This document shows, piece by piece, positions 401 through 32,460 of a DNA stretch of 50,831 bases. Origin of the DNA: an uncultured Peptococcaceae bacterium (lineage in GTDB: Bacteria > Bacillota > Peptococcia > Peptococcales > Peptococcaceae); contig CATJSX010000100.1 in the NCBI GenBank assembly GCA_949743265.1, positions 1-50,831 of the forward strand, read 5' to 3'. The position numbers and the translations under genes were made by a program. The notes under the pieces are model-generated. The model was not told the DNA's origin and ran no database searches. It saw only the letters and a list, made by a program, of their open reading frames with translations. Within the stretch, counting starts at the first letter, position 1; the number at the start of each line of letters is the position of its first letter.

Positions 401-1114
401 TTATATTGGAAAGCCGCCCTTGCCTATAATACTTACTGTTTCTGCTGTTGCATCATATAGCTTTATTCCTCCTCTGGCATTAACTACCGTTCTCATAGTC
501 GCTACCCCACCTTCTCCAATAACCATCATCGCTATATCTTTAGGGGGTCTAAATCCTTCCGGTAAAGCAAATAAAATGGTCCCTCTATCCGTTAGCCCTT
601 TTCTTATATCAAAATCCACATTGACATATCTGCCACTTTTCGTCACTATAGCAGCACCGTTGTAATTCTCCCAGCCGTTTAACGGTTCTACTGTAATTTG
701 CTTCGTTGTGGCTACTTCTTTAAACGGATAAAGCCTCATTCTGTCCCCATCTCGGTTGGCATAAGCTACTATCATTCTTTCTCTGCTTGCTCTAGGACTA
801 TCAACCATCAACTCAATTCTAATCGCATCCCATGCACTAGCGGTACGTTCCACTAATAAGTTAATATGACTTGAATCCACATAGTCATCAAAGTATTTAG
901 GTATATCAACAATTAACTGTTTCATCAATGATTTATGAAGATTAACATTGCCGCTTGCAATAACGGTTAAATGCATGAAAACAGCGTTATTACCAATTTT
1001 ATTATTGATTTTCGCTAAATTCCCCACAAAATCGTCCTCTGCCATGTCCGCATCACTTAATCCCCTTTGCTCCAATGTGGTATAAGTTTTCACTTGATGC
1101 TCTCTGTCATTCAC
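401..1114 (-). CDS. Tail fibre protein, C-terminal part (frame-shifted)
   Basis: The open frame has a GTG at 1114, but the readable protein continues upstream in this frame to the G-run at 1159-1164. The upstream residues (ADTAISFTGWTFWV) read like fibre sequence. This is therefore most simply the distal part of the tail fibre whose N-terminal part ends at 1149. Removing one G from the run joins the two into a protein of about 490 residues. The distal part of a fibre normally carries the receptor-binding region. No ribosome binding site supports independent translation from 1114. The end at 401 precedes small phage genes. Confidence 0.6.
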   Translation of the reverse strand: MNDREHQVKTYTTLEQRGLSDADMAEDDFVGNLAKINNKIGNNAVFMHLTVIASGNVNLHKSLMKQLIVDIPKYFDDYVDSSHINLLVERTASAWDAIRIELMVDSPRASRERMIVAYANRDGDRMRLYPFKEVATTKQITVEPLNGWENYNGAAIVTKSGRYVNVDFDIRKGLTDRGTILFALPEGFRPPKDIAMMVIGEGGVATMRTVVNARGGIKLYDATAETVSIIGKGGFPI

Positions 1115-1148: not shown

Positions 1149-1874
1149 TCAGCTAATACCCCCCACTCCAGAACGAATTTTCGTTAAGTTTAGGCTCCCT
1201 TGGGCTGATGGATAGACGCTGTTGGCTTGATTAACGACACAGTTAAGTATGCTGTTGGGCTGCATCGCTTGAAACAGCGTTACTATTGGCGTTGTAGCGT
1301 CAAAAGCTTCATTTACTTCAGCAAAAGAAGTATAGTGCTTATGAATCCGTTGATTGACAACTGCCACTTGGGCATCGGTATAGGCTTTACTGCTTTCTTT
1401 AGCAGCATTAACGTCTTGAATCGTTGCGATGATAGTTAACGGATTAACTTTTAAGGTAACATTTTCTGTATTGCTAACCACTGTCGTTATTTTTATAGTG
1501 ATATCTTTACTTGCTCCTTCATCAAGAACTGGCTTATAGCTTACTGGAACGGAAGCGACAGCAATCATGTCCCCTTCATCATCAAATAAACCCACTTCGC
1601 AAATGAAAAAACCGCCAATATCCGGCGGTATGGTCATTACGGTATTCAACCAGTTGGCATTTTCGGCATCAATTTCAATATAAGAAATATCACCGCGATA
1701 GCGTTCTCGTTTTAATGTTTCTTGTGCTTCCGAGGGCTGGTAGGATCCGCTTTCATCATCCTTGCCGCCATCTCCCAAAGCCATTTGTGTTATGACCAGT
1801 TTTTGGTTTAACGCTACTTTATTAGCCAATTTGGCTTTGCCAATATTGGTCCAAATCGAATAAAAGTCAGCCAT
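1149..1874 (-). CDS. Phage tail fibre, N-terminal (collar-fibre) part
   Basis: The start is the ATG at 1874, chosen because GGAAGGAG sits just before it and the protein then begins MADFYSIWTNIGKAKL, typical of the DUF3751 tail-collar-fibre N-terminal domain. That domain (about residues 1-150) attaches the fibre to the baseplate in P2-like phages. It is followed by an alanine-rich linker. The frame ends early at a TGA (1149-1151), just after a run of six Gs. One base fewer would carry the reading into the downstream 401-1159 frame. The gene begins 3 bases after tail protein I, as in P2-type baseplate operons. As it stands the product lacks its distal domain. Confidence 0.75.
   Translation of the reverse strand: MADFYSIWTNIGKAKLANKVALNQKLVITQMALGDGGKDDESGSYQPSEAQETLKRERYRGDISYIEIDAENANWLNTVMTIPPDIGGFFICEVGLFDDEGDMIAVASVPVSYKPVLDEGASKDITIKITTVVSNTENVTLKVNPLTIIATIQDVNAAKESSKAYTDAQVAVVNQRIHKHYTSFAEVNEAFDATTPIVTLFQAMQPNSILNCVVNQANSVYPSAQGSLNLTKIRSGVGGIS
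1159..1164 (-). repeat. G6 homopolymer at tail-fibre frame break
   Basis: Six consecutive Gs on the minus strand (Cs on the plus strand) sit exactly where the tail-fibre frame switches. With five Gs the two frames join without a stop; with seven the frame stops at once. It could be a slippage site, a fixed mutation or an assembly error. Confidence 0.7.
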
Positions 1875-1876
1875 AT

Positions 1877-2716
1877 TTATACTCCTTCCAATTGTTCTTC
1901 TTTGGGCAAAATGGTGATATTTTCGCTGCCTAACAGAAATCCCGTCAGACAAGTGTTCATTGTGCCAATATATTCTTTTTCAATTTTTGGCCATACTTCA
2001 ATCGTTTCACTACCCCATGTAAAACCGCTTATGCTAAGCAGCATATTAGCACTGTACTCTCGTTGACCTTTAGGGCAAACGGTGATGATTTCGCCGCTTA
2101 AAGAAAAGCCGGACAAATAGGTATTTATCTGCGCATTATGTGTTTTCACTAAAAAAGGAAATACCCGCAATGCTTCGCCGTTTTGCACACCCATGCCTAA
2201 AAAGAGAGGCAGATTATTTTTTAACTGAACCTTAAAACGTTCCAGATGTGAGCGAGCGTTTTTATTTTCTTGAATAAATAATTCCGCTTCATCCAGCTGA
2301 ACGCGGCTAAAGCCATTATTAGTTTCAATATCCACTTGAAACCGATACGGGTCACCGTCGTATTCAAACCACTCTTTAACCATAGCGTCTCCATTATAAA
2401 TAGCCTTGACCTTATCTTTAATGACTTTTGCTGTTCCAGAAAACAACTGATAAAGCAATCCGCTTTTCACCAGCTGACGCTTATTAACGATAGGCAGCGT
2501 ATTTTTGTATCCCTTTATTTTCCATTGAGCGGCTAACAAATCCAGTCCGCTTTCCGCTAAATGGTCAAGATCAGCATATACTTTAACCTTTTCGCTATGG
2601 CCTATAATCTCTTGAAAAGCAGCATTCAAGGCGGCGGAAAGAGCATGACAATGGGCTTTTGTTTTAAAATTCGGCGGCAATAAATCAAGCAGTGTGACAG
2701 TTTCTAAAGTTTTCAT
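1877..2716 (-). CDS. Phage tail protein I (P2 gpI-like)
   Basis: This baseplate protein of the P2 gpI family has the usual N-terminal region with LLPPNF near residues 13-18 and alternating aromatic and hydrophobic residues up to about residue 120. gpI links the baseplate wedge to the fibres. Here the family region is followed by about 100 residues with a thrice-repeated element (LSGFSLSGE, ISGFTWGSE and LTGFLLGSE, each followed by I-T-V-C-P or similar), suggesting a repeated beta-rich extension. It overlaps the gpJ-like gene by 4 bases at its start and is followed by the tail fibre, the standard J-I-fibre order. Confidence 0.85.
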   Translation of the reverse strand: MKTLETVTLLDLLPPNFKTKAHCHALSAALNAAFQEIIGHSEKVKVYADLDHLAESGLDLLAAQWKIKGYKNTLPIVNKRQLVKSGLLYQLFSGTAKVIKDKVKAIYNGDAMVKEWFEYDGDPYRFQVDIETNNGFSRVQLDEAELFIQENKNARSHLERFKVQLKNNLPLFLGMGVQNGEALRVFPFLVKTHNAQINTYLSGFSLSGEIITVCPKGQREYSANMLLSISGFTWGSETIEVWPKIEKEYIGTMNTCLTGFLLGSENITILPKEEQLEGV

Positions 2717-3843
2717 CGTGTTTCAAAGCCTCCGAACTCAGCATGAATAGCTGTGCATTTTGCCGTTTGTGAGGAGGTGATGACCGTATAACTCGGCTCA
2801 GCAATGATTAAACGCTTAGCGCCATTATCTAAGCAAATTTTAATGATTTCATCAGGGATAATATCTTTGCCAATTTGTCGGCTTAAGCTAGCGGTGTACT
2901 CCGCTAATCCCAGCTGAATAGCGGCTTTTATTGTTTCTGCTTCATTTTGACAGCTGTTATCGAGATAAAACGTTAAAGCAATGGTAAATTCTCTGACCTC
3001 CGGCGCTGCCACAATTAAATGGTCTGTTAACGGTCGCTGGTCAGTCATGGAATCTTTTAGCCCTTGCAAAAAGGCGTCCGTGGGTAGTTGTCCATCGTTC
3101 AAAATTATGCGCATATCGACGACGCCGGGCGTTGGCGAATCAACGGCAACATCACTAATAACTTGACTATAACTTTTAGCGAAATAACTATAAGCAGCCG
3201 CCGGACCAGCTACCGAAAAGCTATCTGGTTTTAACTCAATTCGTTGACGAAATCGTTCATCGTCTTCACGATCAGCGCCTCCCTGTGTCGGTTCAATATT
3301 TTCGACACTTGCCACATAAGGCAGCGGATCAACCAATGTATTTAACTGACCAATGGCGAATCTGTTGCCAATTAAACCAGCCGTTAGTGCTTCAACCGTC
3401 ACATCGACCCTTTGAGCACCGATGTCAATCACTTGCGGCGCTATGGTTTGAAAAAAGAGATCGCCGCCAGATGATACACGAGTACCAGCTGGAATCACTG
3501 CCGCCTCTTGCGCAGCTTCGGAGAGCACGAATCGAACGGTAGTGACAGCTTTTTGTGGAGCCAATCGTTTCACATTTAATAATGCGCCTAGCTCATCTAA
3601 ATAGCCGCCTTCTGCCCACTTGAGATAATTCATGCGGCTGTTATAGCTAATCAATTCGTACAGTTGATAAAACATGGGCAGCGTGCTAATAAGTTCAATA
3701 CGTGCGCTATCAGCGGGCTTTAATGTTTTTTGCTGGCCGGTCTGCTTATAATATTCTTCTTCATAGGCTTTAATCATAATACCTAACAACTCATCAGGTG
3801 TTTTCATCGCTTCTGGCCCAGCAAGATTGATTAAATTATCCAT
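2713..3843 (-). CDS. Baseplate J-like protein (P2 gpJ)
   Basis: This is a baseplate J family protein, a wedge component at the edge of contractile tails. It has the family's central region of beta-rich sequence (VIPAGTRVSSGGDLFFQT, residues about 115-132) and the GGADREDDERFRQRI segment typical of gpJ homologues near residue 190. I choose the ATG at 3843 over an upstream TTG at 3852; GGTGG precedes it. The length (about 376 residues) is normal. The gene overlaps gpW upstream by 8 bases and gpI downstream by 4, so the cluster is translationally coupled. Confidence 0.9.
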   Translation of the reverse strand: MDNLINLAGPEAMKTPDELLGIMIKAYEEEYYKQTGQQKTLKPADSARIELISTLPMFYQLYELISYNSRMNYLKWAEGGYLDELGALLNVKRLAPQKAVTTVRFVLSEAAQEAAVIPAGTRVSSGGDLFFQTIAPQVIDIGAQRVDVTVEALTAGLIGNRFAIGQLNTLVDPLPYVASVENIEPTQGGADREDDERFRQRIELKPDSFSVAGPAAAYSYFAKSYSQVISDVAVDSPTPGVVDMRIILNDGQLPTDAFLQGLKDSMTDQRPLTDHLIVAAPEVREFTIALTFYLDNSCQNEAETIKAAIQLGLAEYTASLSRQIGKDIIPDEIIKICLDNGAKRLIIAEPSYTVITSSQTAKCTAIHAEFGGFETR

Positions 3844-4144
3844 GGTATGCAATCACCACCTTCATCATCAATTGACCGTTTAAAGCGTCATCATGAGCAA
3901 AAATCGTATCTTTTACACTGACCTCCGGTTCGTATCGCCTAATAGCCTCCACGCATTCCGCTAAATATTTCACTTGCGCAATCGGCAGCGGCAGATCCAA
4001 AACACTCAAGTCAACACCAAATTTGCGATCATAACATACAGTACCTTTGGGCGTACTGAGCAAAGTTTTTAACCGTTCAATGACCTCTTGGGGGGCTTCC
4101 CCTTCAATTAAAGGTTCCATTTCCTCACCGTCTAACCTCTCCAT
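3836..4144 (-). CDS. Baseplate assembly protein W / gp25-like
   Basis: At 102 residues this is a small baseplate wedge protein of the GPW/gp25 family. The family signature is visible: an early stretch with LLSTPKGTVCYDRKFG (residues about 28-43) and a later I-x-x-Y-E-P-E-V motif near residue 70. It overlaps the gpU-like gene upstream by 13 bases and gpJ downstream by 8. An alternative ATG lies at 4120 but has the start too close to its purine-rich stretch, so the first ATG is kept with modest certainty. Confidence 0.85.
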   Translation of the reverse strand: MERLDGEEMEPLIEGEAPQEVIERLKTLLSTPKGTVCYDRKFGVDLSVLDLPLPIAQVKYLAECVEAIRRYEPEVSVKDTIFAHDDALNGQLMMKVVIAYHG

Positions 4145-4542
4145 GCTGTTGTTAAATATTCCTCAAACGTCAATTCCACTTTGCCGCTAATCACATGACC
4201 ATCTTTATCGACGATATCCCACATTTGGCTAACCTGTGTAATCTTCCATTTATCTACGCCGATAGCCGTACCGATGATTAACGTAAAGGCTTCACCACTA
4301 CGGCAATAGCTCAAGAATTTATCCATAATGACTTTCGGCTCTACCCCAAAGCGTTTATCAAGAATAATCGTAAGTGTCACAGTGTCTAAACCCGGTCCAG
4401 AGAATTCACTGACCGGTTTTTGTCCAATCACCTCTTGATTATTCCATCGACTGGCTATTTCGCGTTTAATTCCTTGCGGCGTTAGAATTTTATCCGCTGA
4501 TGTTTCAAAAATAATATCACCGAAACTGCCGATTTGTCCCAT
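4132..4542 (-). CDS. Phage tail protein, P2 gpU-like
   Basis: The 136-residue product begins MGQIGSFGDIIFETSADKIL, characteristic of the P2 gpU family, which forms the tail terminator that finishes tail-tube polymerisation. The region near residues 50-110 (TVTLTIILDKRFG, then a C-R-S-G-E-A-F turn and W-K-I-T-Q-V) fits the same family. In P2 gpU lies further upstream, between the tape measure and gpD. Here it stands immediately after a truncated spike gene and before gpW, an order found in some Bacillota prophages. About 90 bases without a gene separate it from the chimeric gene upstream. Confidence 0.75.
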   Translation of the reverse strand: MGQIGSFGDIIFETSADKILTPQGIKREIASRWNNQEVIGQKPVSEFSGPGLDTVTLTIILDKRFGVEPKVIMDKFLSYCRSGEAFTLIIGTAIGVDKWKITQVSQMWDIVDKDGHVISGKVELTFEEYLTTAWRG

Positions 4543-4633: not shown

Positions 4634-5185
4634 CTAATGACCATGATGATTGGTATTGCCGCCGTCATCAATAATGCTGCCACTGGCGTGAATACTGCCA
4701 TTGACGTTAAAATTACCAGTGATAGACGTTTGGCCAGTCACATTTAAAGCAGCACAGTTAATCATGACATTACCAACAGTCGTAATCTCTACCGCTGCGG
4801 CTTGTTGTATGATCACTTTTCCTTTTGCGTCAATCGTTACATTTGCTTTGGCGTTCACAAGATTCATGTTGCCGCTATGGATGTCATACTCAAGATAGCT
4901 GTCGTCCTTATTTTTTTCCATGCGTCGGCGAATAACTTTCTTATTCAAACCGGGAATATCGTCACAATAGAATCTGCCCAAACAAAAGCCCCTTTCTGGC
5001 GCATTATCTGGTAATAATTCTTTAAATAAATAATACAAGTCGCACTCTGGAAAAAACTTCTTTGATATTTTTAACGCTTCGTCTAAATTTATAGAGCGTT
5101 TTCGTGAAAGTTTATAACCTAAAGTTTCCCTAGCAATACCAAGTTCTTGCGCGATATCTGTAATTGTAAGTTGTTTCCTTGCCAT
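4634..5185 (-). CDS. Chimera: Cro-like HTH fused to baseplate spike gpV C-terminus
   Basis: The first 55 or so residues form a helix-turn-helix (ITDIAQELGIARETLGYKL, then a FFPECDLYYLF segment) typical of small phage Cro-like or auxiliary repressors. From about residue 60 the sequence becomes the C-terminal half of a gpV/gp45 baseplate spike: GFCLGRFYCDDIP, a R-R-R-M-E-x-x-K-D-D-S-Y-x-E-Y-D segment, a beta-helical repeat region and the terminal HHGH (residues 180-183), like the metal-binding H-x-H of spike tips. The N-terminal OB domain of gpV is absent. The ATG at 5185 has a strong GGAGGTG site. The gene is divergent from the repressor at 5335, exactly where Cro belongs. The likeliest origin is an internal prophage deletion with its junction near 4990-5020. 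Confidence 0.75.
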   Translation of the reverse strand: MARKQLTITDIAQELGIARETLGYKLSRKRSINLDEALKISKKFFPECDLYYLFKELLPDNAPERGFCLGRFYCDDIPGLNKKVIRRRMEKNKDDSYLEYDIHSGNMNLVNAKANVTIDAKGKVIIQQAAAVEITTVGNVMINCAALNVTGQTSITGNFNVNGSIHASGSIIDDGGNTNHHGH

Positions 5186-5208
5186 AAAAGCACCTCCAAT
5201 TCATTTTT

Positions 5209-5221
5209 AACGCATTGCGTT
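5209..5221. promoter_or_regulatory. Phage operator O1 (13-bp palindrome)
   Basis: AACGCATTGCGTT is a palindrome around one central base. It lies between the -10 region of the leftward promoter and the Cro-like start codon. Together with two related copies it probably binds the divergent repressor and Cro-like proteins. Confidence 0.65.
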
Positions 5222-5234
5222 GCGTCTGTTATTA

Positions 5235-5262
5235 GATTATCATGCATTGCGTTTAATGTCAA
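5235..5262 (-). promoter_or_regulatory. Leftward early promoter of prophage
   Basis: On the minus strand a consensus -35 TTGACA (5257-5262) is followed about 15-17 bases on by a weaker -10 region (GATAAT or TAATCT, within 5235-5241). The operator copy at 5241-5253 lies between the two boxes, so repressor binding would block it. It would drive the chimeric gene and, in this arrangement, the baseplate genes behind it. Confidence 0.6.
5241..5253. promoter_or_regulatory. Phage operator O2 (imperfect copy)
   Basis: CATGCATTGCGTT matches the 13-bp palindrome perfectly in its right half and differs at three positions on the left. It sits inside the leftward promoter. Confidence 0.5.
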
Positions 5263-5271
5263 TATATTTTC

Positions 5272-5300
5272 TTGACTTTTTTCGCGCAATGCGTTATTAT
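5272..5300 (+). promoter_or_regulatory. Repressor maintenance promoter
   Basis: TTGACT (5272-5277) and TATTAT (5295-5300) are spaced by 17 bases and face the repressor gene at 5335. A copy of the 13-bp operator fills the spacer, suggesting that the repressor can switch off its own synthesis. Confidence 0.65.
5283..5295. promoter_or_regulatory. Phage operator O3
   Basis: CGCGCAATGCGTT differs from the consensus palindrome at its first two positions only. Its position inside the repressor promoter spacer parallels the autoregulatory operator of lambdoid switches. Confidence 0.55.
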
Positions 5301-5334: not shown

Positions 5335-6162
5335 ATGGACTTTTATGAAATCTTGCAAGATATAATGGAAGAAAAAAAACTAACCATTCCTGAAATTGCA
5401 CGTCGTTCTGGATTACCCGATTCTACAATTAGAAGTATGATTTCAAGGAAAAATAAGAGCATTGCGCTTGAAGTAGCTTTTAAATTATCAAAAGGATTAA
5501 ATGTATCACTTGAACGATTAAACGGAGAGAAAAGCGAAAGTTCTTTAATTGCAAACGATAATGATTATGATTTTTTTGCTGAAGGTTTTTGGCAAAAATA
5601 TGAACGTATAAGTAAGCATGATCAAGAAATAATCAATACTATTTTAGAAATTTCTTATGCTGAATATGAAAAAACGGTAATTAAAAAACAAAAGAAGAAA
5701 TGCGTTACAATAAAAGAATCTATAATTGAACCAACTTCACGTTGTCTTCCAAAAGGTATTATTTTACTTGAGGATTACAGGGAAGAAGATAAATGCGATA
5801 ATACGGTGAGTATGCCTATATACGACATTGGCGCTAGTGCCGGTACTGGTGTATTGCTTGACAGTCATTATTATGAAGTTGCCGCTATGCCTGATACTCC
5901 CATGACACGCAAAGCCAATTTTGCCGTCTGGGTAAGCGGTCACAGTATGGAACCAAAATTTAATGACGGTGATTTAGTGCTGGTGCGTACACAACCAGCC
6001 ATTGACATTGGCGAAATTGGTATATTCATTGTTAACGGCGATAGCTTTATCAAGAAGCAAGGAGAAGATAGGTTGATCAGTCTAAATCCAGACTATGACG
6101 ATATTATCATCAATGAATGGGACGAAGTTTACTGTAAAGGGAAAGTGTTAGACAAACTATAA
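5335..6162 (+). CDS. LexA-like (S24) prophage repressor
   Basis: The 275-residue protein has an N-terminal helix-turn-helix (residues about 16-40, TIPEIARRSGLPDSTIRSMI) and a C-terminal S24 peptidase-like domain. The catalytic serine is Ser204 in SGHSMEP and the general-base lysine is at about 240 (SFIKKQG). The probable self-cleavage site is the Ala-Gly pair at 169-170 (ASAGTG). Proteins of this design hold the prophage silent and cut themselves when RecA filaments form after DNA damage. The ATG follows GGGGAGG. It faces away from the Cro-like chimera across three operators and therefore very likely controls it. Confidence 0.9.
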   Translation: MDFYEILQDIMEEKKLTIPEIARRSGLPDSTIRSMISRKNKSIALEVAFKLSKGLNVSLERLNGEKSESSLIANDNDYDFFAEGFWQKYERISKHDQEIINTILEISYAEYEKTVIKKQKKKCVTIKESIIEPTSRCLPKGIILLEDYREEDKCDNTVSMPIYDIGASAGTGVLLDSHYYEVAAMPDTPMTRKANFAVWVSGHSMEPKFNDGDLVLVRTQPAIDIGEIGIFIVNGDSFIKKQGEDRLISLNPDYDDIIINEWDEVYCKGKVLDKL

Positions 6163-6186
6163 ATCGAAAAGGAGTTGATTTTAAAT

Positions 6187-6699
6187 ATGAATATGGCTCA
6201 AGAAATAGATCTAGTCACACCAGAAGAATTTGAAGCAATGGAGAAGGAAGAACGATTTAATTATGAGTTGATTAACGGTATAGTTATGATGTCTCCTAGT
6301 CCATCAAGAGAGCATCAAGTTATCTCTTTTCGCTTACAAGGAAATTTATTTCCATTTTTAAAAAACACTTCTTGTCAAGGTGCCTGCGAACTAGATATAA
6401 AATTCAACGATGATATTTTCAAACCCGATCTGATGATATTCTGTGACGAAAATGCCGAGTTGCCCGAAATCGTCTTTGAAATTCTAAGTCCATCTACTAG
6501 ACGTAAAGATTTAATTATCAAGGCAGTAAAATATGAGGAAGCTGGTATTAAAGAGTATTGGATTATTGATCCAAAAATAAAAACGGTTACTGTTCATGAT
6601 TACGTTAATCAAACAGCAGAAACTTATGCTGTCGGTGATATAATACAGTCTAACGCCAGACCAGAAATTATTATAGCAGTAGCAGACATTTTCAATTAG
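6187..6699 (+). CDS. Uma2 family (DUF820) nuclease-fold protein
   Basis: At 170 residues from the ATG at 6187 (AAAAGGAG lies 12 bases before; a TTG at 6175 is in frame) this is a Uma2 family protein with a PD-(D/E)xK nuclease fold. The pattern is visible: an acidic residue in IKFNDDIFKPDLMIF, the EIVFEILSPSTRRKD segment, and K-Y-x-x-A-G-I-K-E-Y-W-I-I-D-P. The family is common but its biological role is unsettled. Its place between repressor and integrase suggests a lysogenic accessory ('moron') gene transcribed with the repressor, possibly protecting the host or processing DNA. Confidence 0.85.
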   Translation: MNMAQEIDLVTPEEFEAMEKEERFNYELINGIVMMSPSPSREHQVISFRLQGNLFPFLKNTSCQGACELDIKFNDDIFKPDLMIFCDENAELPEIVFEILSPSTRRKDLIIKAVKYEEAGIKEYWIIDPKIKTVTVHDYVNQTAETYAVGDIIQSNARPEIIIAVADIFN

Positions 6700-6751
6700 A
6701 CAATATCGTCTTCTGTACTCTGTATTTACATTATTGATAGAGGTGAAGCGT

Positions 6752-8337
6752 ATGACAGATTTAACTCCTTATAAAATCATCTATGCGCGACAAAGCATAG
6801 AGGTGTATCTATCGATGCGCAAATTGAGCGTTGTATTATGCTGTGTCAAATGAATGGCTGGGAATATAAAGTTTATAGCGATACCGGTTTTTCTGGTAAA
6901 AACCTAAACCGACCAGCTTTCAAAAACGCAATGAAAGATATCGAATCTGGTAAGGCCGATATGATTATTGCCTATCGTTTTGACCGTATCAGTCGTTCTA
7001 TGGCGGATTTCACACAACTGATTGTTAAATTAGAGGAGCATAACGCCAAATTCACGTCGGCTACTGAAAACTTTGATACATCGATCCCATTTGGTCGTGC
7101 AATGGTGGGTATTATTATGATTTTTGCGGAGTTGGAACGTAATACAATTACCGAAAGGGTCGTCGATAACTATTATTATCGTGGCGATTTAGGATATTGG
7201 CCCGGCGGCACAGCTCCCTATGGCTACAAACTGATCAAGGTTACTGATAAACAAGGACGCAAACGTTCTGCTTTGGAGATTGATCCTATTCAGGCTAATT
7301 ACATTAAAGAAATGTTTGAAATGTACGTCCAGCCTGACGGATCCATTAGAAAAATTATCACCAAACTTAATTCAGAAAATGTACCGACAAACCGTAATTC
7401 TCAATGGACTTCACGAGTAGTAGCGGATATTTTAGAGCGTCCCATATATACATCAAATAGTATTGATGTGTATAATTATTACAGAGAGCAAGGTGCGAAC
7501 ATTATCAACCCTATTGAAGATTTTGACGGTCGATATTCTCTGAACTTATACGGCAAAGTAGGTAAAAATGTTAATCGTCATAAGCGCTGCCGAGAAGCCA
7601 ACGAAATGAAATTGATAATATTAAATCATATACCGATAATTGATTCTGATCTTTGGTTAAAAGTTCAGCAAAAACGCACTGCAAATGCTAAAACTCCTAA
7701 TAGAAGTGGCACTAGCCAAAACAGCTACTTAACAGGTTTGCTTATTTGTGGTGAATGTGGTCATCGTGTGTCTATTATAAAAGATGGCACTGGTTGGCGC
7801 GGTTATGTTTGCAGCACACGTAAAAACCGCGGCAAAGATATTTGTCCATTGCCGATATTAAATGCAAAGAAAATGGAGAGTATCGTTTGTCGTGATTTGA
7901 TTGAACATTTTACTGTTCCCGATGTTATACAGTCTATCAAGCAAGTGGCAGAAAGCCAACCTTTAGATTTAAACCCAGAAAGAGCATTTCAAAAAAATTC
8001 ACTAGAAACGCAGATCCAGAAAATTGATCAAGAAATAGAGACTTTGGTAACATCTATTGCTCAAGGAAATGATACTTTAATTAAGTATGCCAATATAAAA
8101 ATAGAACAGTTAGATAATCAACGCAAAGTGCTTGTACAAGAGTTATCAACGTTGGATTTAGAGCAATTTAGTGAGAGGACAGAAATTGAGAAGTATAGAG
8201 ATATTTACTATTTTATACAAGGCATTGATGTAAAAGTTACTGATGCAGACTTTGCGCAAATGAAGTTTATTTGTAACATGCTGATCGAATCCGTAACATT
8301 TTTTGCAGATGATGTAAAAATAAATTACGTTGTATAA
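6752..8337 (+). pseudogene. Large serine integrase, frameshifted near N-terminus
   Basis: Most of a large serine recombinase is readable from about 6802 to the stop at 8337: a resolvase domain (SDTGFSGKNLNRP, then YRFDRISRSMADF), a Recombinase domain, and a zinc ribbon with CGECG near 7750 and two later cysteines, followed by a coiled coil. The real start appears to be the ATG at 6752 (after AGGTGAAG), which encodes MTDLTPYKIIYARQS with the catalytic serine at 6794-6796. Between 6797 and 6801 the frame breaks. Adding four bases (a second copy of the ATAG unit) would restore the usual G-V-S-I-D-A-Q. The long open frame alone starts at 6838, after the serine, and cannot catalyse strand exchange. 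This enzyme would normally integrate and excise the prophage. Confidence 0.8.
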
Positions 8338-8354
8338 ACTCTTTTTGAAACAAA

Positions 8355-8391
8355 AAAGTTAAGGGATTTTCTGTGCTCTTAACTTTCTTTA
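8355..8391 (+). terminator. Terminator after integrase
   Basis: AAAGTTAAG pairs with CTTAACTTT across a loop of about 14 bases and is followed by TCTTT. It lies 18 bases after the integrase stop. Confidence 0.6.
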
Positions 8392-8402
8392 AGATTCTAA
8401 TG

Positions 8403-8705
8403 TATGACAGTAGCACTGTACAGGAATGGATGGACGCAGGCGGCAAAATCACCAGATTAACAATATGGTTTCATGATTTTCTTCCAGATGATGAGGCATG
8501 TATTATATTTTCCGATGCTCTTTCCAACGAACTTCCTAACGTCTATATCATTCTGTTTATGGGTTTAACATCAGATGGATACCAAGTGGCAATTAAACAG
8601 CAGGAAAATATTGTTTCAGTTTGGAATACACATCCAGATTGGCGCATCGGGCAAATACGGTATGACTGTAAAGATGATAAAATAACGCAATCAACAAGAT
8701 ATTGA
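8403..8705 (+). CDS. Hypothetical protein, possibly a remnant
   Basis: An open frame of 100 codons from an ATG at 8403 lies just behind the integrase terminator. The composition is protein-like, with no membrane segment or known motif, but no ribosome binding site precedes the start. It may be the 3' part of a host gene cut by prophage insertion. A short in-frame peptide in the decayed DNA downstream shares an R-Y-D-C-x-D stretch with its end. I do not recognise a family. Confidence 0.35.
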   Translation, partial: YDSSTVQEWMDAGGKITRLTIWFHDFLPDDEACIIFSDALSNELPNVYIILFMGLTSDGYQVAIKQQENIVSVWNTHPDWRIGQIRYDCKDDKITQSTRY

Positions 8706-11640: not shown

Positions 11641-11737
11641 AAAACGGTACAATTAGAAACAATCGCTAATTTATTTGATGGGTGCCATTTAGAAAAACTT
11701 GAAAACAATCAAAAATACTATGTTTGGAGAGGTAATT

Positions 11738-12805
11738 GTGGAGAGAATTTCAATAGAAGAAGCTGCTAATAGGTGGGAAGTTTCTGCAAAATATGTCGCT
11801 AAACTTTGTATTGAAGGTAAAATTGAACAAGCAATTTTAAAAGAAAAAATGTGGTATATACCTGCAAATACTAAAAAACCAAAAAGTATTCCAAGTGTCT
11901 ATTATGTTGAAGAGGAAAAAAAAGTAATAAAGCCTTTTTTAAAATGGGCTGGCGGCAAAGGACAATTATTAAAAGTGCTTGAAACATACTATCCTTTTGG
12001 AGAAACGATTACAAAATATGCAGAACCATTTGTGGGTGGCGGTGCAGTTTTGTTTAATATTCTTAGCCAATATGATGTAAGCGAAATCTATATCAGTGAT
12101 ATTAATGTTGAGCTTATCAATGCGTATTGCGTTATTAGGGACGAAGTGGATAAATTAATTGACTTATTAGCGTTATATCAGAATGAATATTTGCCATTAG
12201 ATACCGATTCACGTAAAACTTATTATATGAAAAAACGTGAAATTTTTAATGAGTTAAAGATAAAAAATTCTAAAATGAATAGTATTGAAAAAGCTGCCCT
12301 CATGATTTTTCTTAATAAAACTTGCTTTAATGGTCTTTATCGTGTAAATAGTAAAGGAATGTTTAATGTGCCAATGGGATCTTATAAAAATCCTTTAATT
12401 TGCGATAAAACTAATTTGAAGAATATTTCCAAGAAGCTTCAAAATGTGACTATTGTCTGCGGTGATTATCATCAATCGGCAGATTTTATTGATGAGCATA
12501 CTTTTGTTTATTTTGATCCGCCATATCGCCCACTGACAAATACGGCTAGCTTTACAGCTTATACAGAAACACTTTTCGATGATAAAGCACAAATCGAGCT
12601 TGCTCATTTTGTAGATGAAATGCATCGTAAGGGAGCAAAGATTGTTGTGAGTAATTCTGATCCTAAGAATTCACAAATAGAAGATGATTTTTTTGACAGC
12701 ATTTATGCTGCTTATAAAGTTGAACGTGTAGAAGCTACACGGATGATTAACTGTAATAGTGAAGCACGAGGAAAAATCAAAGAACTGGTTATATCTAATT
12801 TTTAG
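11738..12805 (+). CDS. DNA adenine methylase (Dam/DpnM type) with N-terminal HTH
   Basis: A D12-class N6-adenine methyltransferase that probably methylates the A of GATC. FLKWAGGKGQ at residues 67-76 is the SAM-binding motif and DPPY at 260-263 the catalytic motif, in the order usual for Dam and M.DpnIIA. About 45 residues ahead of the core form a MerR/excisionase-like helix-turn-helix (ISIEEAANRWEVSAKYVAKL), an addition seen in some phage and Bacillota Dam proteins. The GTG at 11738 is preferred because GGAGAGG lies 5 bases before it; a frame from TTG at 11699 is also open. It is followed by the remains of a DpnII endonuclease, so it began as part of a restriction system. Confidence 0.88.
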   Translation: MERISIEEAANRWEVSAKYVAKLCIEGKIEQAILKEKMWYIPANTKKPKSIPSVYYVEEEKKVIKPFLKWAGGKGQLLKVLETYYPFGETITKYAEPFVGGGAVLFNILSQYDVSEIYISDINVELINAYCVIRDEVDKLIDLLALYQNEYLPLDTDSRKTYYMKKREIFNELKIKNSKMNSIEKAALMIFLNKTCFNGLYRVNSKGMFNVPMGSYKNPLICDKTNLKNISKKLQNVTIVCGDYHQSADFIDEHTFVYFDPPYRPLTNTASFTAYTETLFDDKAQIELAHFVDEMHRKGAKIVVSNSDPKNSQIEDDFFDSIYAAYKVERVEATRMINCNSEARGKIKELVISNF

Positions 12806-12829: not shown

Positions 12830-13300
12830 AGGACTGGTTTAGATTCTAATGGTCGAAAAAATCGCGGTGGTCATTTGATGGAAAATTTAGTAGAAAATTA
12901 TATTCAAAAAGCTGGTTATATAAAAGGTGAAAACTATTTTAAGGAAATGTATATTCACCAAATTACGGAAAAATGGGGAATAGATCTTTCTGCTATTTCC
13001 AATCAAGGTAAGATGGAAAAACGATTTGATTTTGTTATTAAGACTGACCATATGATTTATGGTGTTGAAACAAATTTTTATCGTAGCAACGGTTCAAAAC
13101 TTAATGAAACCGCAAGAAGTTATAAAACATTGGCTATGGAAGCTGATACTATAGAGAATTTTACTTTTGTGTGGTTTACTGATGGAAAAGGCTGGATAAA
13201 TGCACGAAATAATCTTGAGGAAACTTTTGATGTGATGGCGTGCATTTATAACAACATCAATGATTTGGAAAATGGTATTATCAGAAAGGTTTTTAAATAA
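12830..13300 (+). pseudogene. DpnII-type restriction endonuclease, N-terminal half missing
   Basis: The frame reads as the C-terminal half of the DpnII family: NGRKNRGGHLMENLVENY, a KRFDFVIKTDH stretch, then GVETNFY and GSKLNETARSYK, WFTDGKGW, NNLEETFD and a terminal NINDLENG. DpnII is about 288 residues; only about 155 codons remain here and an in-frame stop (12827-12829) precedes them. The candidate nuclease core (D in FDFVI, E in VETNF) is kept, but the N-terminal domain is gone, so a working enzyme is unlikely. Translation could begin at the ATG at 12878, but no strong ribosome binding site is seen. The missing DNA lay between this point and the Dam stop at 12805. The gene's stop overlaps the next start (TAATG). 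Confidence 0.75.
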
Positions 13301-30787: not shown

Positions 30788-31806
30788 ATGGTTTCATAAT
30801 CAGCCCGCAACTGACCACAAGCCGCGTTTAACGTTGCACCAAATTCGCGACGTATGGTGACAGTCAGGTGGTGCTGTTTTAAGATTTGGTAAAAATTTAA
30901 GCAACGGTCCCAATCGCTGGCATAAAAACCGCTGTTTTGCGTTTCATTGTAGCGAATTAAGTTTACCTGACAACGGCGGCGATTGCCAATAAGCCTTGCC
31001 AATTCTTCAGCGCAAGCAGAACTATCGTTAAGGTCTTTTAGTAAGATATATTCCAGCATAACCTTCTTTCGAGTATGAGCCAAATAGTCATCAACAGCAA
31101 GCATGAGTTCTGATAAAGGATAACGGCGATTGGCAGGCATCAATTGGCTGCGCAGCTGATCATTAGCGCTATGTAAACTGATGGCTAATTGTCCATGAAT
31201 TGGCTCATGACCGTATTGAATAATAGCTGGCACAATGCCGCAAGTGGAAACTGTGATATGTCTTAATCCAATAGATAAACCTTGTGCCTGACTGATGATA
31301 TGGATAAAAGCCATTACTTGTTCATAATTATCAAAAGGTTCGCCAATACCCATTAAAACAACATTGACGATTTTATTTTGCGTTAATTGTTCAACCGCCA
31401 ATAATTGAGCTGTCATCTCAGCTGCCGATAAATTACGTACTTTTTTGAAACGACCGCTTTGACAAAAAGCACATGCCATATTGCAGCCAACTTGTGTGGA
31501 TAAACAAAGACTAAAACCAAATTTTTGCTGCATTAAAACGGCTTCAATCAAATTACTGTCTTCTAAAGCAAATAAAAATTTACAAGCATTATGATCTGTC
31601 AATTGTGTTACCAATTTGGGCAATGTTAACGAAAAATCTTTGGCCAATTGGCAGCGCAAAGTGGCTTTAAAGGAAGAAATTTGCGCAAAATCGGTAATCT
31701 TTTCTTGATATAAACTGCGAAAAAGCAATTTTCCTTTGGCGGGATTTTCGCCTAAAGTGGTAAAATAGTTTTCCAGTTGTGTTAATGTTTGTCCGTAAAT
31801 ATTCAT
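30784..31806 (-). CDS. RlmN/Cfr family 23S rRNA A2503 methyltransferase
   Basis: This radical SAM methylase acts on A2503 of 23S rRNA or a similar site. It has the [4Fe-4S] motif CNMACAFC (about residues 109-116), the GIGEPFDNY segment, and the C-terminal catalytic cysteine in AACGQL. Several stretches look closer to Cfr than to housekeeping RlmN as I remember them: SLHSANDQLRSQLMPANRRYP, VNLIRYN, and VTIRREFG before AACGQL. Whether it makes C2- or C8-methyladenosine cannot be decided by reading. AAGGGG precedes the ATG. A PadR regulator lies immediately upstream on the same strand. Confidence 0.85.
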   Translation of the reverse strand: MNIYGQTLTQLENYFTTLGENPAKGKLLFRSLYQEKITDFAQISSFKATLRCQLAKDFSLTLPKLVTQLTDHNACKFLFALEDSNLIEAVLMQQKFGFSLCLSTQVGCNMACAFCQSGRFKKVRNLSAAEMTAQLLAVEQLTQNKIVNVVLMGIGEPFDNYEQVMAFIHIISQAQGLSIGLRHITVSTCGIVPAIIQYGHEPIHGQLAISLHSANDQLRSQLMPANRRYPLSELMLAVDDYLAHTRKKVMLEYILLKDLNDSSACAEELARLIGNRRRCQVNLIRYNETQNSGFYASDWDRCLNFYQILKQHHLTVTIRREFGATLNAACGQLRADYETI

Positions 31807-31929
31807 AAAGTGCCCCTTTGCTTGAAATCAATTCTATTAAAGCATGATCGAGTAGTTGGCGAGCGATCACGATAAAAATGAGATAGTTTATACAATAAAA
31901 AATTGTATTTATGGCGTGAAAAATGGCTT

Positions 31930-32460
31930 TTAAAGCTGCCAATCTTTTCTCATAGCAGCTAGCCATATTTCAATAGCTTCTATCAAAAGAAATTGTTGTT
32001 TTAAAACGCTCATTCCTTCGGCAGGAATGTCCTTCGCTTGTTCCTTGTCGTCAAGATTTTTTTGCATACGTTCCTTCAATATACGTATATTGTTTGTTAT
32101 CTGTTCCAAACATAGTTGTCGTTTTTCCCATGCAAGATTATCCAAATTAACGATTACGGCGTTAAAATCCAAAAAAATATGAATAGGTTTAGCAGAAATA
32201 TCGAGCATCAGTTCATCAAAAATTTTTTCGCCACTAGTTGTCAAAGAATATACTGCCTTTTCCATTTTTTTTCCGCTTTTAGTAAGGACACTTTTAATAT
32301 AACCTTTTTTCTCTAGTTGCAAAACTTTTTTATAAATAGAAGGGGTACTGATACGCACCCATTGAGAAATTTGACGATATTCTACTAGTTTTTGAATGTC
32401 ATAAGCGCTTAAAGAATCTTTTTTTAAAATTCCTAAGATAATCAAATCTATTGTCGTCAT
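31930..32460 (-). CDS. PadR family transcriptional regulator
   Basis: The 176-residue protein has the PadR winged helix at its start (DLIILGILKKDSLSAYDIQ; STPSIYKKVLQLEKKGYI) followed by a C-terminal region of long amphipathic helices (Vir-like dimerisation domain). PadR proteins respond to small toxic compounds and often control a neighbouring transporter or resistance gene. The ATG at 32460 has TGGAGG five bases before it. It lies 123 bases upstream of the RlmN/Cfr-like gene and 40 bases downstream of the sortase, all on the minus strand; regulation of either neighbour is inference. Confidence 0.88.
   Translation of the reverse strand: MTTIDLIILGILKKDSLSAYDIQKLVEYRQISQWVRISTPSIYKKVLQLEKKGYIKSVLTKSGKKMEKAVYSLTTSGEKIFDELMLDISAKPIHIFLDFNAVIVNLDNLAWEKRQLCLEQITNNIRILKERMQKNLDDKEQAKDIPAEGMSVLKQQFLLIEAIEIWLAAMRKDWQL

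Follow-up and report, generated by a model that had tools for sequence, protein, structure and literature searches.

A Cro-type regulator fused in frame to the C-terminal half of a gpV-type spike in a cryptic prophage remnant of an uncultured Peptococcaceae bacterium

Analysis of the window (the whole stretch of DNA studied, 50,831 nucleotides of contig CATJSX010000100.1 from an uncultured Peptococcaceae bacterium) raises the question of how a single gene at 4634-5185 came to start as a phage regulator and to end as a baseplate spike, and what such a gene could do. A sequence-only reading had described one uninterrupted frame in which a helix-turn-helix (HTH) regulator turns into the spike near residues 57 to 62. 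Open reading frame analysis of the window revealed 183 codons with an ATG start on the minus strand, and matches to Cro-type and gpV proteins fall on separate halves of the product (Table 1). The two halves were aligned separately, as had been suggested, and the first part retrieved phage HTH proteins and the last part gpV. BLAST alignments to gpV homologues from syntenic phage loci (L013 to L016, L019, and L020, of which L014 and L015 carry one and the same gpV protein) start at residue 57, further loci behave alike, and the Cro matches stop at residues 54 to 57. This result places the junction where it had been proposed.

Table 1. Features of the prophage remnant, ordered by position in the window
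Feature	Position	Strand	Evidence or remark
Minor-tail-like protein	401-1114	-	phrog_3285, E 4.2e-7
Tail-collar fiber protein, N-terminal region	1149-1952	-	PF12571, E 8.4e-47
Tail protein I	1877-2716	-	PF09684, E 1.9e-19
Baseplate J protein, 379 aa	2713-3852	-	PF04865, E 3.3e-52
gp25/gpW-like baseplate wedge protein	3836-4144	-	phrog_43, E 8e-13
gpU-like tail protein	4132-4542	-	PF06995, E 3.9e-22
Chimeric ORF, 183 aa	4634-5185	-	Cro-type HTH head and C-terminal half of gpV-type spike
gpV C-terminal half, residues 63-183	4637-4999	-	Last OB strand, beta region, HxH tip
Junction zone, residues 57-62	5000-5017	-	gpV matches start at 57; Cro matches stop at 54-57
Cro-type HTH part, residues 1-56	5018-5185	-	E2 ORF29, 48% over residues 1-54; Cro HMM, E 4.7e-19
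Shine-Dalgarno-like GGAGGTG	5191-5197	-	Just upstream of the chimera; read from the sequence
Operator-like palindrome ACGCATTGCGT	5210-5220		11 bp
Possible cro-type promoter	5236-5262	-	TTGACA (5262-5257), 15 bp, GATAAT (5241-5236)
Operator-like palindrome ATGCATTGCGT	5242-5252		Inside spacer of cro-type promoter
Repressor promoter-like TTGACT-17-TATTAT	5272-5300	+	Promoter scan; chance matches common there
Operator-like palindrome GCGCAATGCGT	5284-5294		Inside spacer of repressor promoter
S24-type phage repressor, 275 aa	5335-6162	+	PF00717, E 3.6e-20; HTH_3, E 2e-6; phrog_4; looks intact
Uma2-family gene	6175-6699	+	PF05685, E 8.1e-27
Large serine integrase	6751-8337	+	Frame broken just past catalytic-serine codon; main frame open from 6838

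The N-terminal part of the chimera is 35 to 48% identical to members of the E2 ORF29 family. The highest of these values belongs to ORF29 of Geobacillus E2 (64 aa), and identities of 47% to Javan206_0005 and 43% to PG1 were obtained with the N-terminal 54 to 57 residues. The Cro-family HMM matched no gpV protein better than E 0.9. The small HTH genes E2 ORF29, Javan206_0005, and PG1_26 are each divergent from a repressor gene and encode a full HTH, as does the chimera, but their products stop at 64 to 71 aa, whereas the chimera continues into gpV. A motif like FFP..D..YLF is found at residues 44 to 54, and the relatives (64 to 78 aa) stop a few residues past it, which indicates that very little of the Cro half is missing. 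An AlphaFold model of low confidence shows three helices in the HTH part (residues 8 to 15, 19 to 28, and 34 to 44). An HTH of the E2 ORF29 family, divergent from a repressor gene and sharing operator-like palindromes with it, marks this part as a Cro-type HTH domain.

The C-terminal part resembles the gpV-type spike of contractile tails. TIGR01644 (phage_P2_V) matches residues 92 to 183 at an E value of 6.8e-10, a match that does not reach the curated whole-protein cut-off, and profile searches retrieved the solved gpV-type spikes of R2 pyocin and P2 (4s37, 4s36, 3qr8, and 3aqj). In an alignment of the chimera with nine gpV segments (31 to 41% identical), residues G66, L69, G163, H181, and H183 are invariant, and the two histidines form the HxH tip characteristic of gpV/phage_P2_V spikes. 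The identification of a C-terminal gpV half ending in HHGH is thus borne out. It had also been stated that gpV normally carries an N-terminal OB domain, and an OB-domain HMM was positive at the N terminus of 19 of the 22 gpV-type ORFs (15 distinct proteins); a Cro domain was detected in 0 of the 22. No match to the OB HMM was obtained for the chimera, in which only the last OB strand remains; from that strand onward its gpV half is complete. It therefore shares the C-terminal region and the terminal HxH tip with the P2 and R2 pyocin spikes but has a Cro-type HTH instead of the N-terminal OB domain.

Two further analyses of the chimera were less informative. The AlphaFold model has a mean pLDDT of 58 and an unreliable linker, and Foldseek with this model gave weak spike matches (best E value, 0.03). 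The maximum-likelihood break in composition lies after codon 61 (range, 54 to 93) and fits the junction; since 380 of 2,000 codon shuffles reach it, it is not significant alone and was rejected as independent proof. The sequence comparisons with both families confirm the gene as a chimera of a nearly complete Cro-type protein and the C-terminal half of gpV.

The chimera occupies the position expected of cro. In the 149-bp gap between it and the repressor gene, an 11-bp palindrome (ACGCATTGCGT or a close variant) occurs three times, in agreement with the earlier proposal of operators in front of the chimera. The possible cro-type promoter was read by eye; its spacing is suboptimal and it is not among the promoter-scan listings. 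Judged from the sequence, the repressor gene, the chimera, and the three palindromes between them have the usual anatomy of a lambda-type switch. Behind the repressor gene, the N terminus of the integrase is encoded in another frame (6751 to 6838), and in the alignment with the integrase of Paenibacillus phage phiERICV, the main frame is matched only by residues 15 onward of the phage protein. This frameshift agrees with a cryptic remnant; it could also be a sequencing error.

The region beyond the repressor gene contains further features. The 3' end of the integrase gene and the sequence beyond it (8150 to 8405) are 78% identical to an intergenic stretch beside a pyrB-like gene (L054 on contig C72, 3748 to 4001), which may be what is left of a related element, or its attachment site. 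The Uma2-family gene matches the PADLOC candidate defense family PDC-S03 and a gene at 14095-15000 matches the candidate family PDC-S18; a small defense cluster possibly separates the prophage remnant from the core genes. A type II restriction enzyme gene (PADLOC REase_II, 12875 to 13300) matches only positions 154 to 289 of a 290-position model; the nuclease is probably truncated and lies between two apparently intact methyltransferases, as in a two-methylase restriction system. The Dam-type methyltransferase at 11699-12805 carries about 75 extra N-terminal residues, preceding its Dam domain, that resemble a small DNA-binding domain.

On the other side of the chimera, the genes for U, gp25/W, J, I, the fiber, and the minor-tail-like protein are co-directional with it, and their frames are open. 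The contig starts at base 1 of the window, and the left end of the prophage lies off the contig. The order gpV-U-gp25-J-I is kept in intact phage loci, in which gpV has its OB domain and follows the tape measure and gpD genes. Between the gpV part and the repressor gene of the window, the gpD, tube, sheath, and tape measure genes present in IMG/VR locus L016 and in phiERICV are absent. The window therefore does not encode a tailocin or another contractile injection system, as it lacks sheath, tube, and tape measure. No replication, head, sheath, tube, or tape measure genes adjoin the remaining genes, and together with the frameshifted integrase gene this indicates a cryptic remnant.

Comparison with phiERICV (CP019719) revealed what is missing. 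The first part of that genome comprises a serine integrase, a repressor, cro (2035 to 2235), early and replication genes, terminase, and head genes; the later part comprises sheath, tube, tape measure, gpD, gpV (31553 to 31987), U, W, J, I, and the fiber. Integrase, repressor, the divergent small HTH gene, and gpV-U-W-J-I-fiber are ordered as in the window, and the tail block order is also common to Bacteriophage Lily, whose late gene order, like that of L016, agrees. phiERICV keeps about 29.5 kb between the two ends, with separate genes for cro and an OB-bearing gpV, whereas the window has neither. Thus, the window corresponds to the phiERICV order minus exactly the stretch from cro to mid-gpV, and the internal deletion joining cro to gpV that the sequence-only reading had put forward is well supported. 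The protein at the cro position of phiERICV is not closely related to the Cro half of the chimera. The closest intact relatives are only 30 to 50% identical, so that the exact breakpoint and any microhomology are not readable.

These results indicate that the chimera very probably arose when a contractile-tailed prophage of phiERICV order underwent a large internal deletion, or an illegitimate recombination of equivalent effect, and that it is an inert or weakly autoregulatory scar. In this account, the loss from a temperate contractile-tailed prophage would have started at the end of cro and reached to mid-gpV, and the two truncated genes would have met in frame by chance as one cro-gpV gene. 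The repressor gene, the operators, the frameshifted integrase gene, and the baseplate/fiber block would be what was left as a cryptic remnant. We infer a single deletion event, and by analogy with phiERICV its size would be about 29.5 kb. Such decay has precedents: in incomplete prophages, the genes for replication and packaging are reported to disappear while those for tails and integrases survive (PMC7744054), and grounded prophages are prone to deletions (PMC6379469). The window resembles cryptic prophages generally in the loss of replication and packaging genes, in the kept repressor, integrase, and tail genes, and in the broken integrase (PMC7744054, PMC6379469), but its join has left a chimeric gene whose frame is open and which immediately follows the immunity switch.

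The missing modules were also sought in the organism's own genome, of which five contigs were read, all with matches. A search of this 98%-complete genome for relatives of the L016 capsid, sheath, tube, and gpD came back empty, which is weak evidence at such a distance. The sheath gene on contig C128, the genome's sole Pfam sheath match, was rejected as the missing part; it adjoins a tape measure gene and xkdP/xkdQ-type genes and belongs to a PBSX-like prophage.

Several fragments of prophages that share stretches of sequence do exist in the genome, among them those on contigs C23 and C125, so the integrase-repressor-cro end of one prophage might have recombined with the tail end of another. 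The product would look almost identical to that of a single-phage deletion. Consistent with two donors, the Cro half is nearest to siphophage-type regulators of Geobacillus, Streptococcus, and Paenibacillus whereas the tail block is contractile, and the repressor side has the lower GC content. However, early regions rich in AT are frequent within single phages; moreover, one intact phage, phiERICV, has both flanking orders, which makes a second donor unneeded. A join of two prophages is therefore considered unlikely. The two contigs show rearrangements of their own. On C125 (L053, 6699 to 7974), the start of an xkdQ-type gene, about 80 residues long, leads straight into a tail gene that is a relative of the one at window positions 401 to 1114; the usual intervening tail genes are missing, a comparable internal deletion that is apparently out of frame. 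On C23 (L051, 15432 to 16025) there is another S24 repressor gene, whose HTH differs from that of the window repressor; its last ~100 bp on the contig are 90% identical to window positions 5773 to 5874, and the contig stops at that point, as though broken at a shared repeat.

A trivial explanation would be a contig assembled from two pieces that lie apart in the chromosome, as the draft consists of 208 contigs and other prophage contigs end in shared repeats. The sequence at the junction, however, is unique: the best matches to this part within the genome are 19 to 35 nt long, with chance-level E values, so no repeat is long enough for a misjoin. The join also connects co-directional genes at domain borders and in frame. 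An assembly artifact is extremely improbable.

A search for the same junction in other genomes had been called for, an architecture conserved in intact prophages being incompatible with an origin by deletion. The whole 183-aa architecture was not found in 84,980 species genomes, IMG/VR, INPHARED, PLSDB, or 398 genomes of the phylum, where only separate halves were detected, and no conserved copy came to light; these searches used peptide patterns or samples, so that rare copies could be missed. IMG/VR viral contigs were additionally scanned with the gpV alignment, and scans of viral contigs gave 0 loci for gpJ and 0 for the Cro part by itself. Two candidates were rejected. The match in L056 over residues 5 to 90 has no regulator or spike context, and that in CHPC954 over residues 4 to 134 spans a 67-aa HTH gene and the gene that follows it, not one fused gene.

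With regard to function, the chimera might be a working new regulator or structural protein under selection, in which the spike would trimerize the HTH head on the three operators. The frame, the Shine-Dalgarno sequence, the operators, the repressor gene, and the downstream baseplate frames are all present and open, and gpV-type C-terminal halves have been solved as separate domains (4s36, 3aqj, and 3vto), so that folding of the spike part may not require the OB domain. The fusion is, however, conserved nowhere among the sequences searched, the integrase is broken, and the linker was modeled with low confidence. The open frame across the join is unremarkable: genes in the same orientation join in frame in about 1 of 3 cases by chance, and the frame is therefore not evidence of selection. 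Because tube, sheath, and tape measure are absent, no tail can form. A working chimera is thus very unlikely. Less likely still is that it is expressed as a trimerized operator-binding protein that sets prophage immunity anew, a regulator born by deletion. Cro proteins usually act as dimers, and a trimer formed via the spike half, although conceivable by analogy, would be an awkward fit.

The chimera is most likely inert, possibly weakly autoregulating, an ordinary scar of prophage decay. Upon inactivation of the repressor, transcription from the presumed cro promoter would cover the chimera together with the baseplate genes, and the product would, at most, bind the predicted operators and repress its own promoter. 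The surviving repressor may give the host immunity to related phages. In annotation, such a gene risks being named a spike or a regulator, though it is neither in full. The locus is a clean example of how, as a prophage decays, a structural domain can come to follow a DNA-binding one under a phage switch, and joins of this kind are a possible route to new proteins.
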